64,000 bases of DNA from NCBI RefSeq assembly GCF_900112065.1, contig NZ_FOKE01000001.1:636828-700827 (forward strand), in the 5' to 3' direction. The stretch is from Cohnella sp. OV330 (GTDB lineage Bacteria; Bacillota; Bacilli; Paenibacillales; Paenibacillaceae). Positions 783 through 4,410 of this stretch are shown piece by piece (the stretch's first letter is position 1; every line of letters begins with the position of its first letter). Under the pieces are notes generated by a model. It was not told the DNA's origin. It saw only the letters and a program-made list of their open reading frames with translations, and searched no databases. The translations under genes were made by a program, and so were the position numbers.

Positions 783-813
783 AAAGAAAAAGACGCCTCA
801 GGCCTGGGGCGCC
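783..813 (-). terminator. Rho-independent terminator of the peptide/exporter cassette
   Basis: On the minus strand a stem GGCGCCCCAG/CTGAGGCGTC (one G-U pair, one mismatch) is followed by TTTTTCTTT. The hairpin includes the TGA stop codon of the last cassette gene, so transcription ends right at the end of the cassette. Confidence 0.8.
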
Positions 814-1406
814 ATTTGCTTCTTCTCGTGGGGCGTTATGATGGCCTCGGGCAGCGCCCCTCTTCGCGCCAATCGCGACGCGAGACCGCCTATCCAGGCG
901 TCCAGCTCGCTTAGCGGCGCCTTGTACAGCGCCAGCCCCTCGACGACGGTCCGCGCCGCGCCGGGTAGCCGCGCGATCCGCGCGAACAGCCGCTCGTTCG
1001 GATCATGATCGGCGACGGTCCAGAACTGTACGTACGCGGCGTCCGGATTGCCCTCGCGAATCGAATCGACGAGCGCCCTGGCAGCGGCGAGGAACACGAC
1101 CGGCGATCTGCTGTCCGGTTCGATGAAGACGGTCTCGATCTGGCAGTTCTCCCGGTCTTCGTACTCGCCGGGCCCGGTGCCGTAGACAAAGCCGAATGCG
1201 CCGATCTTCTCGTAGGAATCCTCGCCATGGATGAGCGTAGCCCTGCCGAGCGCAAGCGGACTTGCAAGGAAACTTAGCTTGATCGCGAAGGGATACGGCA
1301 TATTGAGCGCATCGTGGCGCGATATGAGATAACGAAGGTAGGAGGCATGGTCCATATCGAGCTCGCAGTTCCGAAATATCAAGCTCTCGCCCGCGCTTAG
1401 CGTCAT
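798..1406 (-). CDS. GNAT-fold protein, last gene of peptide/exporter cassette
   Basis: 202 aa if started at the ATG at 1406, which has TGGAGGTG six bases upstream; a TTG start at 1445 is possible but has no ribosome binding site. No named family is recognised with certainty. The central part (SLIFRNCEL; EKIGAFGFVYGTG; NCQIETVFI; then a helix FLAAARALVDSIREGN; AAYVQFWTV; a final NERLFARIA helix) follows the strand/helix order of GNAT acyltransferases, though the pyrophosphate-binding R/QxxGxG/A loop is not obvious. It lies 77 bp downstream of the 33-codon peptide gene, with GC-rich inverted repeats between them, and ends in the cassette terminator. Acylation of the peptide is inferred only from context; it could also be an immunity or binding protein. 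Confidence 0.75.
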   Translation of the reverse strand: MTLSAGESLIFRNCELDMDHASYLRYLISRHDALNMPYPFAIKLSFLASPLALGRATLIHGEDSYEKIGAFGFVYGTGPGEYEDRENCQIETVFIEPDSRSPVVFLAAARALVDSIREGNPDAAYVQFWTVADHDPNERLFARIARLPGAARTVVEGLALYKAPLSELDAWIGGLASRLARRGALPEAIITPHEKKQMAPQA

Positions 1407-1483
1407 GTCGGCCACCTCCAGACTTCGGTTAAATGTGCGGCGCAAGCACCGCCCAGCCGCGTTCGGCCGGGACGGCCGCTCTC

Positions 1484-1585
1484 TTACTTTTGAAGCTGGG
1501 CGCGGAGTTTATCGTTAACCAGGATGATTTTTCCGAAGCCGCTGCCTTTAACGACTTCCTTGATATCAGGCTTAGCAGGATACAT
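1484..1585 (-). CDS. 33-aa small peptide, candidate precursor of a modified exported peptide
   Basis: An ATG at 1585 is preceded by a full AAGGAGGT (1592-1599) with a 6-nt spacer, one of the strongest ribosome binding sites in the window. The product is 33 aa: an N-terminal YPAKPDIKEVV part, a glycine motif KGSGFGK (13-19), a hydrophobic IILV (20-23) and a basic tail ending in lysine. It has six Lys, one Arg and no Cys, Trp or Thr, so it is not a lanthipeptide- or sactipeptide-type core, and no double-glycine leader is evident. It sits 44 bp after one GNAT gene and 77 bp before another GNAT-fold gene, in an operon led by an ABC exporter. Inference: substrate of those enzymes and of the exporter. 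No homologue is recognised. Confidence 0.7.
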   Translation of the reverse strand: MYPAKPDIKEVVKGSGFGKIILVNDKLRAQLQK

Positions 1586-1629
1586 ACGACGACCTCCTTC
1601 GACAAATATTGGGTGATTGCCCAACACAA

Positions 1630-2145
1630 CTATACACGATTCCACTTTTCCAGAACAGACCTAATCTTGCCCACCGAGCCGGCGTATATCGTCTCCGGTC
1701 CCCATTCGCCGTCGCGGACGCCGCATGGCTCTACGAACTTCGCGTACAGCCTGTTCAAGTAGCGGTTATCGCTCTGCGCCGCCAGCCGGATCTCCCGCAC
1801 GCCCGGATGGCGCTCCGCGATCGTATGGACCATAAAGGCAAGTCCTTCGGAAAAAAGACGGCTTCCGCGGTATTCCCGGTCGGAGAGCGCGAGATCGATC
1901 AAGGCGACGTTTTTGTCGGCGAAGCCGTCGTCCCGCGTGCCGTGGAAGAAGACGCCGATGCCGACGGGGTGCCCGTCTTTTTTCGCCAGCACGAGATGAC
2001 CTTCCGTTAAGTACGAATAGATTAACGCCGTCGTGGCAAGCATCGAATACGAAGGGTGAACGTCTCGAATATGTTGAAGCATAAAAAGGCTGGCCTGCGC
2101 TAAATCGTCGTCCGTCTCGCATAACGTGAATTGAAAGTGAGCCAT
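1630..2145 (-). CDS. GNAT family N-acyltransferase
   Basis: 171 aa. The second half has the GNAT pattern: strand NVALIDLALSDREYRG with the acyl-CoA pyrophosphate loop region (EYRGSRLF), a long helix (EGLAFMVHTIAERHPG), strand EIRLAAQSDN and a helix with NRLYAKF. It would transfer an acetyl or longer acyl group from acyl-CoA to an amine. The ATG at 2145 lies only 6 bp after the exporter stop codon, so translation is probably coupled. The 33-codon peptide gene follows. By analogy with GNAT maturases that acylate ribosomal peptides, the likely acceptor is a lysine or the N-terminus of that peptide, but this is inference. A stand-alone acetyltransferase (tailoring or resistance) is the alternative. 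Confidence 0.85.
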   Translation of the reverse strand: MAHFQFTLCETDDDLAQASLFMLQHIRDVHPSYSMLATTALIYSYLTEGHLVLAKKDGHPVGIGVFFHGTRDDGFADKNVALIDLALSDREYRGSRLFSEGLAFMVHTIAERHPGVREIRLAAQSDNRYLNRLYAKFVEPCGVRDGEWGPETIYAGSVGKIRSVLEKWNRV

Positions 2146-2151
2146 CTACCT

Positions 2152-4335
2152 TCATCCTCTCTTCGGGGCACGTCTCAAGCGGCCATCCTCGGCTGTGGCG
2201 GACGCTTGCAACCTGCCGGCCATCGTGCGCTCGAGCGCCGCCATCGTAGCCGGCGACGATTCGACGAGTCTCCTGAACACCTCCCGGCGCATAGACAACA
2301 ATACCCCTGGCCCGAGCGCCCGCACGGTGGCCGTCCGCGGCACCTCCCGCATCAGCGCGATCTCGCCGAAGTAATCGCCGTCCTGCAGCGTGGCGACCCG
2401 CCTCGCTTCTCCTACGGGCTGCTCCTTCAGAACCTCAAACTTGCCGCGGACAATGATATAGAACGTGTGCCCCTCTTCGCCTTCGCGGACGATATCCTCG
2501 CCCTCCGCGCACGGTCGCGTGGAGAACAAGCCCGCAAGGCTCTCCAGGAGCCGCGGCTCGACATCCTCGAAAAAGGGCAGCCGGCCGAGCCGGTCCGCGC
2601 CGACTTCGGCATGCAGACCGTCCTCGGACAATGAAAAGCCCTGCTGCTTGTCCCACAAGCGCGCATATGCGCCGCCGAGGCCGAGGAGCTGCTCGTGCGT
2701 GCCGCTCTCGACGACTTCGCCCCGGTCGAATACGTAGATGCTGTCCGCCTCTACGACCGAGGAGAGCCGGTGCGTCACCGAGACGACGGTCTTGCGGCCG
2801 CGCAGCGACAGGACCAGCTCGTTGACCCGCGCCTCCGAGACCGTATCGAGCGCCGCGGTCACCTCGTCGAGCAGCAGCACGTCCGGATCGCGGAGCAGCG
2901 CCCGGGCCAGCGCGATGCGCTGGCGCTCGCCGCCGGAGAAGCTGGCCCCCTCGTGCCGAACGGTCGTATCGAGACCTTCCGGCCAACGGTCGACCGCCTC
3001 CTGCAGCCCGGCCCGGCGCGCCGCGTCGGTCACGTCGGCGTCGGTCAGGCCTTGCCGGTCCAGCAGCAGATTGTCCCGTACCGTCGTGTTGAACAGAAAC
3101 GTGTCCTGCCCCACGAGCAGCGCCAGTTCGCGAAGCCACCGTTCGCCGATCTCGCGCAAGTCGACGCCGTCCATCGCGACGCGACCCTGTCTCGGGTCGT
3201 AAAGGCGGGCGAGTAGCTGAAGCGCCGTGCTCTTGCCGGAGCCGCTGGCGCCGACAAAAGCCGTGTAGCTGCCGCCTTCGATGGCAAGCGATACGCCTCG
3301 CAGCTGATCCCCGCCTTCGCCGTAGCCGAAGGTCACGCTCTCCATCGCGATCCCGCGGATCGGGGCAGCAAGCGAGCGCGGTTCGGCAGGTTCGGGCACT
3401 TCGGACTCGCGCGCCATGATCTCGCCGATTCTGGCGAAGCTGACGCGCGCCTCGATGATCCCGGGAATGAGATAAGTAAGGTTGGTGGCGGACTGGCCAA
3501 CCGTCATGAACAGCGTGAAGAAGGCCATGAATCCGCCGATCGTCAGATCGCCCCGAAAGATCAGGTACCCGCCGATGCCGATCATGAGGCCGTTCAGGAT
3601 CATCAGCGATACCAGCGGGAGCCGCTCCATCCATGAGGTCACAAGACGCAAGCGCAGGCCGCTTCGCAGCATCTCTCCGACGAGCCGGGCGGCCAAGTCT
3701 CCGACCCGCGCCTGCTGATGGAGACTGCGGATCGTCTTGTGCCCCTTGACGGTCTCGTCGATCGCGTTCATGAATCGCTCCTGCGACGTCTTGAATCGCT
3801 GCTGGCCTTCCTCGGCCCGGCCTTGCAGCAGCTTGGGTCCGACGATCATGAGCGAAGCGCCCGCGATCATCACCAGCGTCAGCCGCCAGTCGAGCGTGAA
3901 CAGCATGACGAGACCGAGCGCGACGCTAAGCGTCTGCGCGAAAAGCAGCGGCACCGTCGCGCCCACGGTGCGCTCTACCGAGGCGGTATCCGTCGTGAAG
4001 CGGGACACCAGATCGCCCGTGCCGTATCGCTGGTAAAAGGAGATCGACTGCCGCTGCACCCGCTCGAACAGATCGAGCCGAAGCTTCGCGACGCCCTGGC
4101 CGACCAGTCTGCCGAGCGCGTAGTCGCCGGTCAGGGACGCCGCGATCGACAGCAAGCCCGCTCCGATCAGCAGACTCAGGATCAGCGCGAAGACGCCGCC
4201 ATCCTTGGGGACGAACGCCTCGTCGACGAGATACTTCAGACTGAGCGGAGCGGCGACGGCGTACGCGGCATCGATCAGCAGGCAGATCAGCAGCAGGGCG
4301 ATGAGCCCCCTGTAAGCGGAGAAATATTTAAGCAT
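2152..4335 (-). CDS. ABC exporter with C-terminal cyclic-nucleotide-binding domain
   Basis: 727 aa from the ATG at 4335 (TGGAG upstream); a longer TTG-started frame has no ribosome binding site. Residues 1-300 form a six-helix type-IV ABC exporter domain. The nucleotide-binding domain has Walker A GASGSGKST (362-370), signature FSGGE (466-470), Walker B and catalytic Glu VLLLDE (486-491), and H-loop THR. Residues about 575-690 form a cNMP-binding domain (FFEDV...; GDYFGEIAL; PRTATV), with the Gly-Glu and Arg expected of a cNMP pocket. No N-terminal C39 peptidase is present, so leader cleavage by the exporter is not expected. It is the first gene of the cassette and probably works as a homodimer exporting the cassette peptide; a lipid or drug substrate is the alternative. 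Confidence 0.9.
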   Translation of the reverse strand: MLKYFSAYRGLIALLLICLLIDAAYAVAAPLSLKYLVDEAFVPKDGGVFALILSLLIGAGLLSIAASLTGDYALGRLVGQGVAKLRLDLFERVQRQSISFYQRYGTGDLVSRFTTDTASVERTVGATVPLLFAQTLSVALGLVMLFTLDWRLTLVMIAGASLMIVGPKLLQGRAEEGQQRFKTSQERFMNAIDETVKGHKTIRSLHQQARVGDLAARLVGEMLRSGLRLRLVTSWMERLPLVSLMILNGLMIGIGGYLIFRGDLTIGGFMAFFTLFMTVGQSATNLTYLIPGIIEARVSFARIGEIMARESEVPEPAEPRSLAAPIRGIAMESVTFGYGEGGDQLRGVSLAIEGGSYTAFVGASGSGKSTALQLLARLYDPRQGRVAMDGVDLREIGERWLRELALLVGQDTFLFNTTVRDNLLLDRQGLTDADVTDAARRAGLQEAVDRWPEGLDTTVRHEGASFSGGERQRIALARALLRDPDVLLLDEVTAALDTVSEARVNELVLSLRGRKTVVSVTHRLSSVVEADSIYVFDRGEVVESGTHEQLLGLGGAYARLWDKQQGFSLSEDGLHAEVGADRLGRLPFFEDVEPRLLESLAGLFSTRPCAEGEDIVREGEEGHTFYIIVRGKFEVLKEQPVGEARRVATLQDGDYFGEIALMREVPRTATVRALGPGVLLSMRREVFRRLVESSPATMAALERTMAGRLQASATAEDGRLRRAPKRG

Positions 4336-4359
4336 AAAGTCTCCAGTGCCCTGGCGGGC

Positions 4360-4383
4360 GGTTGATAGCAAGATATATCAACC
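4360..4383. promoter_or_regulatory. Perfect inverted repeat overlapping the cassette promoter
   Basis: GGTTGATA (4360-4367), an 8-bp spacer and TATCAACC (4376-4383) form a perfect 8-bp dyad. It overlaps the -10 element and the expected transcription start of the exporter/peptide cassette. The position is that of a repressor operator. No regulator gene lies in the cassette, so the controlling protein is unknown. Confidence 0.65.
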
Positions 4384-4410
4384 ATATCGTACCTTTTTGA
4401 AAAGTGTCAA
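4381..4410 (-). promoter_or_regulatory. SigmaA-type promoter of the peptide/exporter cassette
   Basis: TTGACA (minus strand, 4410-4405), an 18-bp spacer, then TATGGT (4386-4381). The -35 is a perfect match. Transcription would start about 4374 and leave a roughly 40-nt leader before the exporter ATG at 4335. Confidence 0.75.

Follow-up and report, generated by a model that had tools for sequence, protein, structure and literature searches.

The 64,000-nt stretch of the genome of Cohnella sp. OV330 analysed here (hereafter the window; all coordinates are positions within it) contains, within 3.6 kb and entirely on the minus strand, a cassette of four genes. These encode an ABC exporter (2152..4335), a GNAT1-type protein of 171 aa (1630..2145), a peptide of 33 residues (1484..1585) and a GN2-type protein of 202 aa (798..1406), the latter being a paralogue of GNAT1. 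The peptide, M-Y-P...KGSGFGKI...NDKLR...K, belongs to the first of the two classes described below, and its gene is preceded by a ribosome-binding site, AAGGAGGT (1592..1599, minus strand), located six bases 5' of the ATG at 1585. Our comparisons indicate that this short frame is a real gene, that similar genes accompany pairs of GNAT genes well beyond Cohnella and, tentatively, that the GNAT pair modifies the peptide.

A conserved peptide gene between two GNAT genes

A protein search (E < 1e-3) recovered the peptide from 15 of the 37 Cohnella genomes, including the window's own, with four extra Cohnella rows at E > 0.4 excluded from the count. In all 15 systems, the peptide gene lies between both GNAT genes on the same strand, bearing out an earlier note on this DNA, which had tied the peptide gene to the two GNAT genes from the window sequence alone. 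Residues M1, K13, G14, S15, G16, F17, I20, N24, L27 and R28 are invariant across the 15 peptides, the middle segment KGSGFG being their best-conserved stretch. The ratio of nonsynonymous to synonymous substitution rates (dN/dS) was determined for 15 pairs that are not mutually independent; it was 0.12–0.54 in 14 of these and saturated in the fifteenth. Judged by this pattern of substitution, the 33-codon frame is a real gene under purifying selection; a chance frame is ruled out by conservation and dN/dS in combination.

The surrounding genes in the 15 Cohnella contexts are common only to the window's near clade and are otherwise different. Because the flanking genes differ among systems, the conservation of the unit is not mere regional conservation. 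When the neighbouring frames of at least 70 aa in the same contexts, part of which were named against a family library, were clustered, no additional family consistently accompanied the unit. At one of the near relatives (L031, genome G009), GNAT1 and GN2 are each found in two frames and may be frameshifted or misread; the peptide frame there is open.

Association of the peptide with GNAT pairs in the family and the order

The family of the window was represented by 394 genomes, as the genome tool groups it. A genome-wide search with the 15-row Cohnella peptide profile, which is not circular, yielded 41 rows in 36 genomes: 37 at GNAT pairs, three corresponding to orphan peptides and one inside a long unrelated frame. 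The GN2 profile matched in 75 of the genomes. We examined 82 regions, including the window, and obtained 76 pairs after exclusion of three peptide-only and three GN2-only regions, one of the latter being cut by a contig end; one fetched region without a peptide was kept outside the 82-region count. A short peptide gene was present beside 74 of the 76 pairs (66 of class 1 and eight of class 2), a count that is partly circular given that most of the peptides used to train the hidden Markov models (HMMs) came from the counted regions. Of the two pairs with no nearby peptide gene, one is in a partly masked region and the other, L185, has a peptide homologue ~21 kb off. Class 1 was detected by HMM at 64 of the pairs, always within 700 bases and on the same strand, and two class-1 peptides missed in the HMM run were found otherwise (L114 and L166). 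Only three class-1 matches occurred elsewhere across 1.10 Mb. The earlier note had envisaged that its proposal would fail if the frame was lost where the GNAT genes persist; the opposite was found, with a peptide gene near almost every pair. As for the orphan class-1 peptides, genome G281 has a pair ~21 kb distant, and G277 and G373 carry a complete system elsewhere.

In the order-level sample, the GN2 profile matched 78 of 296 genomes, representing 22 of 48 genera. We collected 60 regions from other families of the order, comprising 40 strong-scoring GN2 regions (one per genome) and 20 weak or second loci; no peptide from these regions entered the HMM training, and nine of them apparently lie on contigs already among the named loci. 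Class 1 was found in all 40 strong-scoring regions, with both GNAT proteins detected in 38, and had no match elsewhere in the 0.54 Mb of all 60 regions. Among the 20 weak regions, a peptide could be assigned in 17, in 11 of these by inspection alone: the HMMs identified three class-1 and three class-2 peptides, and inspection added seven of class 2 and four class-1-like peptides ending in KRA. The weak regions L254, L259 and L265 had no assignable peptide.

The peptide gene keeps company with two GNAT genes, one of each clade (see below), in a variable order that includes GNAT1-peptide-GN2, GN2-GNAT1-peptide, GN2-ABC-GNAT1-peptide and peptide-GN2-GNAT1. In a locus of Metabacillus litoralis (L077), the peptide is likewise accompanied by the GNAT pair and by an ABC protein. 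Wide spread across the phylum was rejected, only the window's genome having matched the GN2 profile in a 398-genome phylum sample. A phage, plasmid or viral origin of the unit was likewise rejected: plasmid and phage records contained nothing matching GN2 of the window, and the GN2 profile had no confirmed match on viral contigs.

Two classes of peptides

The start codons of the class members were chosen by the strength of the ribosome-binding site. Class 1 comprises 116 distinct peptides of 30–43 residues with a net charge of +2 to +7. Position 2 is occupied by F, I, V or Y in 112 of these and position 3 by P in 91; all contain Lys, none contains Cys and 115 display a closing Arg motif, so that the class signature consists of an M-[FIVY]-P start, a cationic body and a closing NDxLR or NEQxR. 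Given that Cys is missing from all class-1 peptides, formation of lanthionine is impossible in this class. The window peptide matched neither Pfam nor NCBIfam, and no library that we queried names either it or GN2. The absence of such matches agrees with the earlier description of a Cys-free peptide matching none of the common types of ribosomally synthesized and post-translationally modified peptides.

Class 2 comprises 18 peptides of 21–31 residues (L167, L170, L182, L186-L190, L249, L250, L252, L253, L255-L258, L262 and L267), of which 17 start with Met-Gly, nine are devoid of Lys and 12 contain Cys. Their genes occupy the space between GN2 and GNAT1 and run on the opposite strand, behind strong ribosome-binding sites (MGAPAC.., MGDPG.., MGQSGC..). 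When the first eight class-2 peptides were searched against the 37 Cohnella genomes, E < 1e-8 was reached in five, all of them source rows, and 13 further Cohnella genomes gave weak rows only, with E of 0.048 or worse. In a control on 11 of the 20 weak regions, we compared short frames that follow strong sites: 10 of 13 in the gaps started with Met-Gly, versus two of 34 elsewhere, the gaps having been selected after class 2 had been noticed. A third, class-1-like type ending in KRA lies beside divergent GNAT pairs (L260, L263, L264 and L266; by inspection only). Six systems encode two peptides each.

Relationship and predicted structure of the GNAT paralogues

GNAT1 matches PF00583 (Acetyltransf_1) with a score of 28.2 bits, against a cut-off of 20.7, and membership of the GNAT superfamily follows from the fold and from this match. 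GN2 of the window had no Pfam match above the cut-off. Nevertheless, the GN2 and GNAT1 profiles are homologous over almost their full length (hhalign, 99.7%), and the two proteins form separate clades in the tree, each with 100/100 support (105 rows, 89 of them different). Relatives of both, where a source gives them a name, are hypothetical or uncharacterized proteins, and GN2 once an N-acetyltransferase domain-containing protein. The GNAT1 profile had no match among the sequences of solved structures, and the GN2 profile retrieved three weak rows, one of which is an acetyltransferase (8osp, E 0.86). Structural comparison of GNAT1, based on the fold of a relative, placed the protein N-alpha-acetyltransferases Ard1, Naa50 and NatC among the best matches, together with many other GNATs.

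We modelled with AlphaFold2 the chain that results from natural same-frame read-through of the three genes in one Cohnella system. The model had a mean predicted local distance difference test score (pLDDT) of 85.4 and a predicted template modelling score (pTM) of 0.83, with 322 of 437 residues at pLDDT of at least 90. Both GNATs are well folded in it, and GNAT1 and GN2 are predicted to form a heterodimer.

The exporter and regulatory signals

The window ABC protein is a fused permease and ATPase with a C-terminal cNMP-binding domain, recognized through the Pfam families ABC_membrane, ABC_tran and cNMP_binding. It starts with ATG; an alternative TTG at 4371 is likewise in the open frame. An exporter adjoins 10 of the 15 Cohnella systems, and a related ABC protein is adjacent to 37 of the 76 pairs. 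The cNMP domain is present in 29 of the 36 scanned ABC proteins, one truncated protein lying outside the scan, and no peptidase family (C39) appeared among the Pfam matches of the window protein or of the 36. The exporter is an optional part, and an exporter-dependent cassette is ruled out by the many pairs without an adjacent exporter. Thus, of the arrangement that the earlier note had proposed to look for, the position of the peptide between the GNAT genes holds in every Cohnella system, and the adjoining cNMP-domain exporter does not.

A promoter-like TTGACA-18-TATGGT (4381..4410, minus strand) matches at 10 of 12 positions and is also readable 5' of the near relatives L029, L031 and L034. 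A dyad with perfect 8-bp arms, GGTTGATA-N8-TATCAACC (4360..4383, without strand), read from the sequence as a putative operator, is partially retained in L031 and L034 and absent from L029. At the other end of the cassette, the terminator is weak: the hairpin near 794-811 carries a mismatch on the sense strand, and the scan called the opposite strand only. The minus-strand unit outlined previously is confirmed, with a terminator that is weak and a dyad that is poorly kept in relatives. Just 3' of the cassette are two tandem arrays, one at 77-249 (period 62, 2.8 copies) containing the palindrome TGCACAGAATATGTGCA and one at 289-498 (period 51, 4.1 copies).

Comparison with known systems

No description of this unit was found in the literature searched, which consisted of open-licence papers. 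As in the selidamides and nostolysamides, which are GNAT-acylated, a ribosomal peptide gene adjoins a GNAT gene. In NpuN, the enzyme of that system, two GNAT domains stand in tandem and a clear P-loop is seen in just one of them (PMC13060382; PMC9505594), whereas the Cohnella unit has two separate GNAT genes and an intact P-loop in neither. The precursors in NpuN-related GNAT clusters have NHLP or Nif11 leaders, and the characterized ones undergo lanthionine chemistry (PMC13060382); class-1 peptides, by contrast, do not exceed 43 residues and lack such a long leader. With the peptides that receive a lipid at the N-terminus from GNATs (PMC13060382), the unit would share the attachment of a group to the peptide N-terminus by GNATs, and the absence of Cys sets class 1 apart from those that are lanthionine peptides.

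PamZ of Paenibacillus larvae is a tandem GNAT with one domain lacking the P-loop, which acetylates the N-terminal amine of paenilamicin, a cationic polyketide-peptide hybrid, in self-resistance (PMC9054821). Like the unit, it has two GNAT domains, and its target, an N-terminal amine on a cationic peptide, is the one proposed for the unit; it differs in being a single chain with one intact P-loop, as opposed to split genes with none. In a PADLOC search at E 0.001, the window GNATs and the peptide had no match, and the ABC protein matched through its ATPase and cNMP regions only; with no defence match beyond those regions, a known defence system was rejected.

Possible roles of the GNAT pair and the peptide

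We consider that the peptide is modified by the split GNAT pair, with the N-terminus as the most likely site and with a donor whose binding departs from the usual mode, an explanation that we favour while placing it slightly below even chances. GNAT1 and GN2, as the predicted heterodimer, would attach a group to the peptide, most probably to its N-terminal amine. GNAT1 would hold the active site, given that Tyr134 of motif B, which we take to be the general acid, is kept in 99% of GNAT1 proteins, with Phe or another residue at this position in the printed GN2 rows; GN2 would supply the binding groove. The donor would be bound other than through the ordinary coenzyme A (CoA) loop, candidates being an acyl carrier protein or an aminoacyl-tRNA, both of which serve other GNAT-fold enzymes as donors. 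Where present, the exporter would carry the modified peptide out. There are precedents in PamZ and NpuN, tandem GNATs with one domain lacking a clear P-loop that modify amines of peptides. That the peptide would be the substrate of the pair fits the occurrence of two peptides in six systems, and the N-terminus is suggested as the site of modification because the first residues are conserved in both classes and Lys is absent from half of class 2.

A number of observations weigh against this explanation. GN2 occurs without GNAT1 or a peptide in L183 and L184, and peptide copies occur without GNATs in L078, L081/L099 (same contig), L098 and L113. GN2 was not found beside GNAT1 and the peptide in L090/L261 (one species) and L251, nor GNAT1 beside GN2 and the peptide in L217 and L241. 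Roughly half of the pairs lack the ABC protein, and the lysines of class 1 could allow modification of side chains instead. In the read-through model the peptide is unplaced (pLDDT < 50), and in a second AlphaFold2 model, of GNAT1 with the peptide based on 17 true peptide rows, it reached a pLDDT of 51-57 with a C-terminal helix. The defined pairing of GNAT1 with GN2, moreover, is a prediction read from the pTM, and not from the coordinates, of a read-through chain that is artificial.

Further points of this kind concern the CoA-binding loop, as neither protein carries the P-loop R/Q-x-x-G-x-G/A. The leading Arg is retained in 74 of 74 GNAT1 and 74 of 75 GN2 proteins. Of the positions aligned with the two small residues, GNAT1 has Arg at the first (60 of 74 proteins) and Phe at the second (73 of 74), and GN2 has mostly Arg or Thr at the first and Phe at the second (63 of 75). 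The loop was mapped with one ordinary GNAT from a neighbouring locus and by its place before helix 3 in the model; a second yardstick GNAT aligned with a gap, and the assignment of columns comes from one of the two. Since the small residues of this loop appear to be missing from both GNATs, simple acetyl-CoA chemistry is doubtful. The interpretation given in the earlier note, an acylated and exported peptide or a peptide pheromone or toxin with its pump, is partly supported, in that a conserved peptide gene goes with the GNAT pair.

A more far-reaching version of the proposed peptide modification holds that leaderless micropeptides of ~20-43 residues, a new class of ribosomal products widespread in the Paenibacillales, are modified at the N-terminus by an obligate split GNAT heterodimer devoid of the CoA loop and supplied by a different donor (an acyl carrier protein or an aminoacyl-tRNA, for instance), and that there are two lineages of substrates, the in-line cationic M-[FIVY]-P peptides and the opposite-strand Met-Gly peptides. 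Taken as a whole, this version is somewhat unlikely.

Alternatively, the peptide may bind to the GNAT pair as a small subunit or a regulator, the true substrate, a small molecule or a protein, lying elsewhere. The strict association of the peptide with both GNATs would be expected of a subunit, the conserved KGSGFG of the Cohnella peptides could be a binding motif, and the one-base overlap of the peptide stop with the GN2 start in 19 rows suggests coupled translation. However, the second peptides in six systems, the orphan copies and the opposite-strand class are better accounted for by substrates, and we regard this alternative as rather unlikely. Self-protection is unlikely: the peptide would be antibacterial, and the pair would either do no more than inactivate it within the producer by N-acetylation, in the manner of PamZ, or bind it as an immunity pair. 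The peptides are indeed cationic, an exporter adjoins about half of the pairs, and PamZ modifies a cationic peptide antibiotic in this way at its N-terminal amine (PMC9054821); yet the CoA loops are degenerate and, in our judgement, the peptides vary less than antibacterials usually do.

An ordinary acetyl-CoA-dependent peptide N-acetyltransferase, the product of which would be an acetylated secreted peptide, appears distinctly unlikely: the GNAT fold and the presence of Ard1, Naa50 and NatC among the best structural matches of GNAT1 point in this direction, but the two small P-loop residues are gone from both proteins in most members. A role of the peptide frame as a regulatory leader or coupling device with an inert product, which its shortness and its position 5' of GN2 in many systems might suggest, is hardly credible: dN/dS is low, and the peptide gene often closes the operon or lies on the opposite strand.

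A previously unannotated family of micropeptides is now linked to a specific pair of proteins, which the GN2 profile locates in 78 of 296 genomes of the order. Should the peptide prove to be a subunit, its binding to paired GNATs would still be uncommon for a micropeptide. If it is modified by the pair, as we favour, the unit would represent a minimal pathway, of three genes, for producing a modified ribosomal peptide, in which a GNAT fold works without the CoA loop. The GNAT pair would then offer a handle for mining genomes for peptides that escape a search with the peptide itself, being found by GN2 in 75 of the 394 genomes of the family versus 36 by the peptide.

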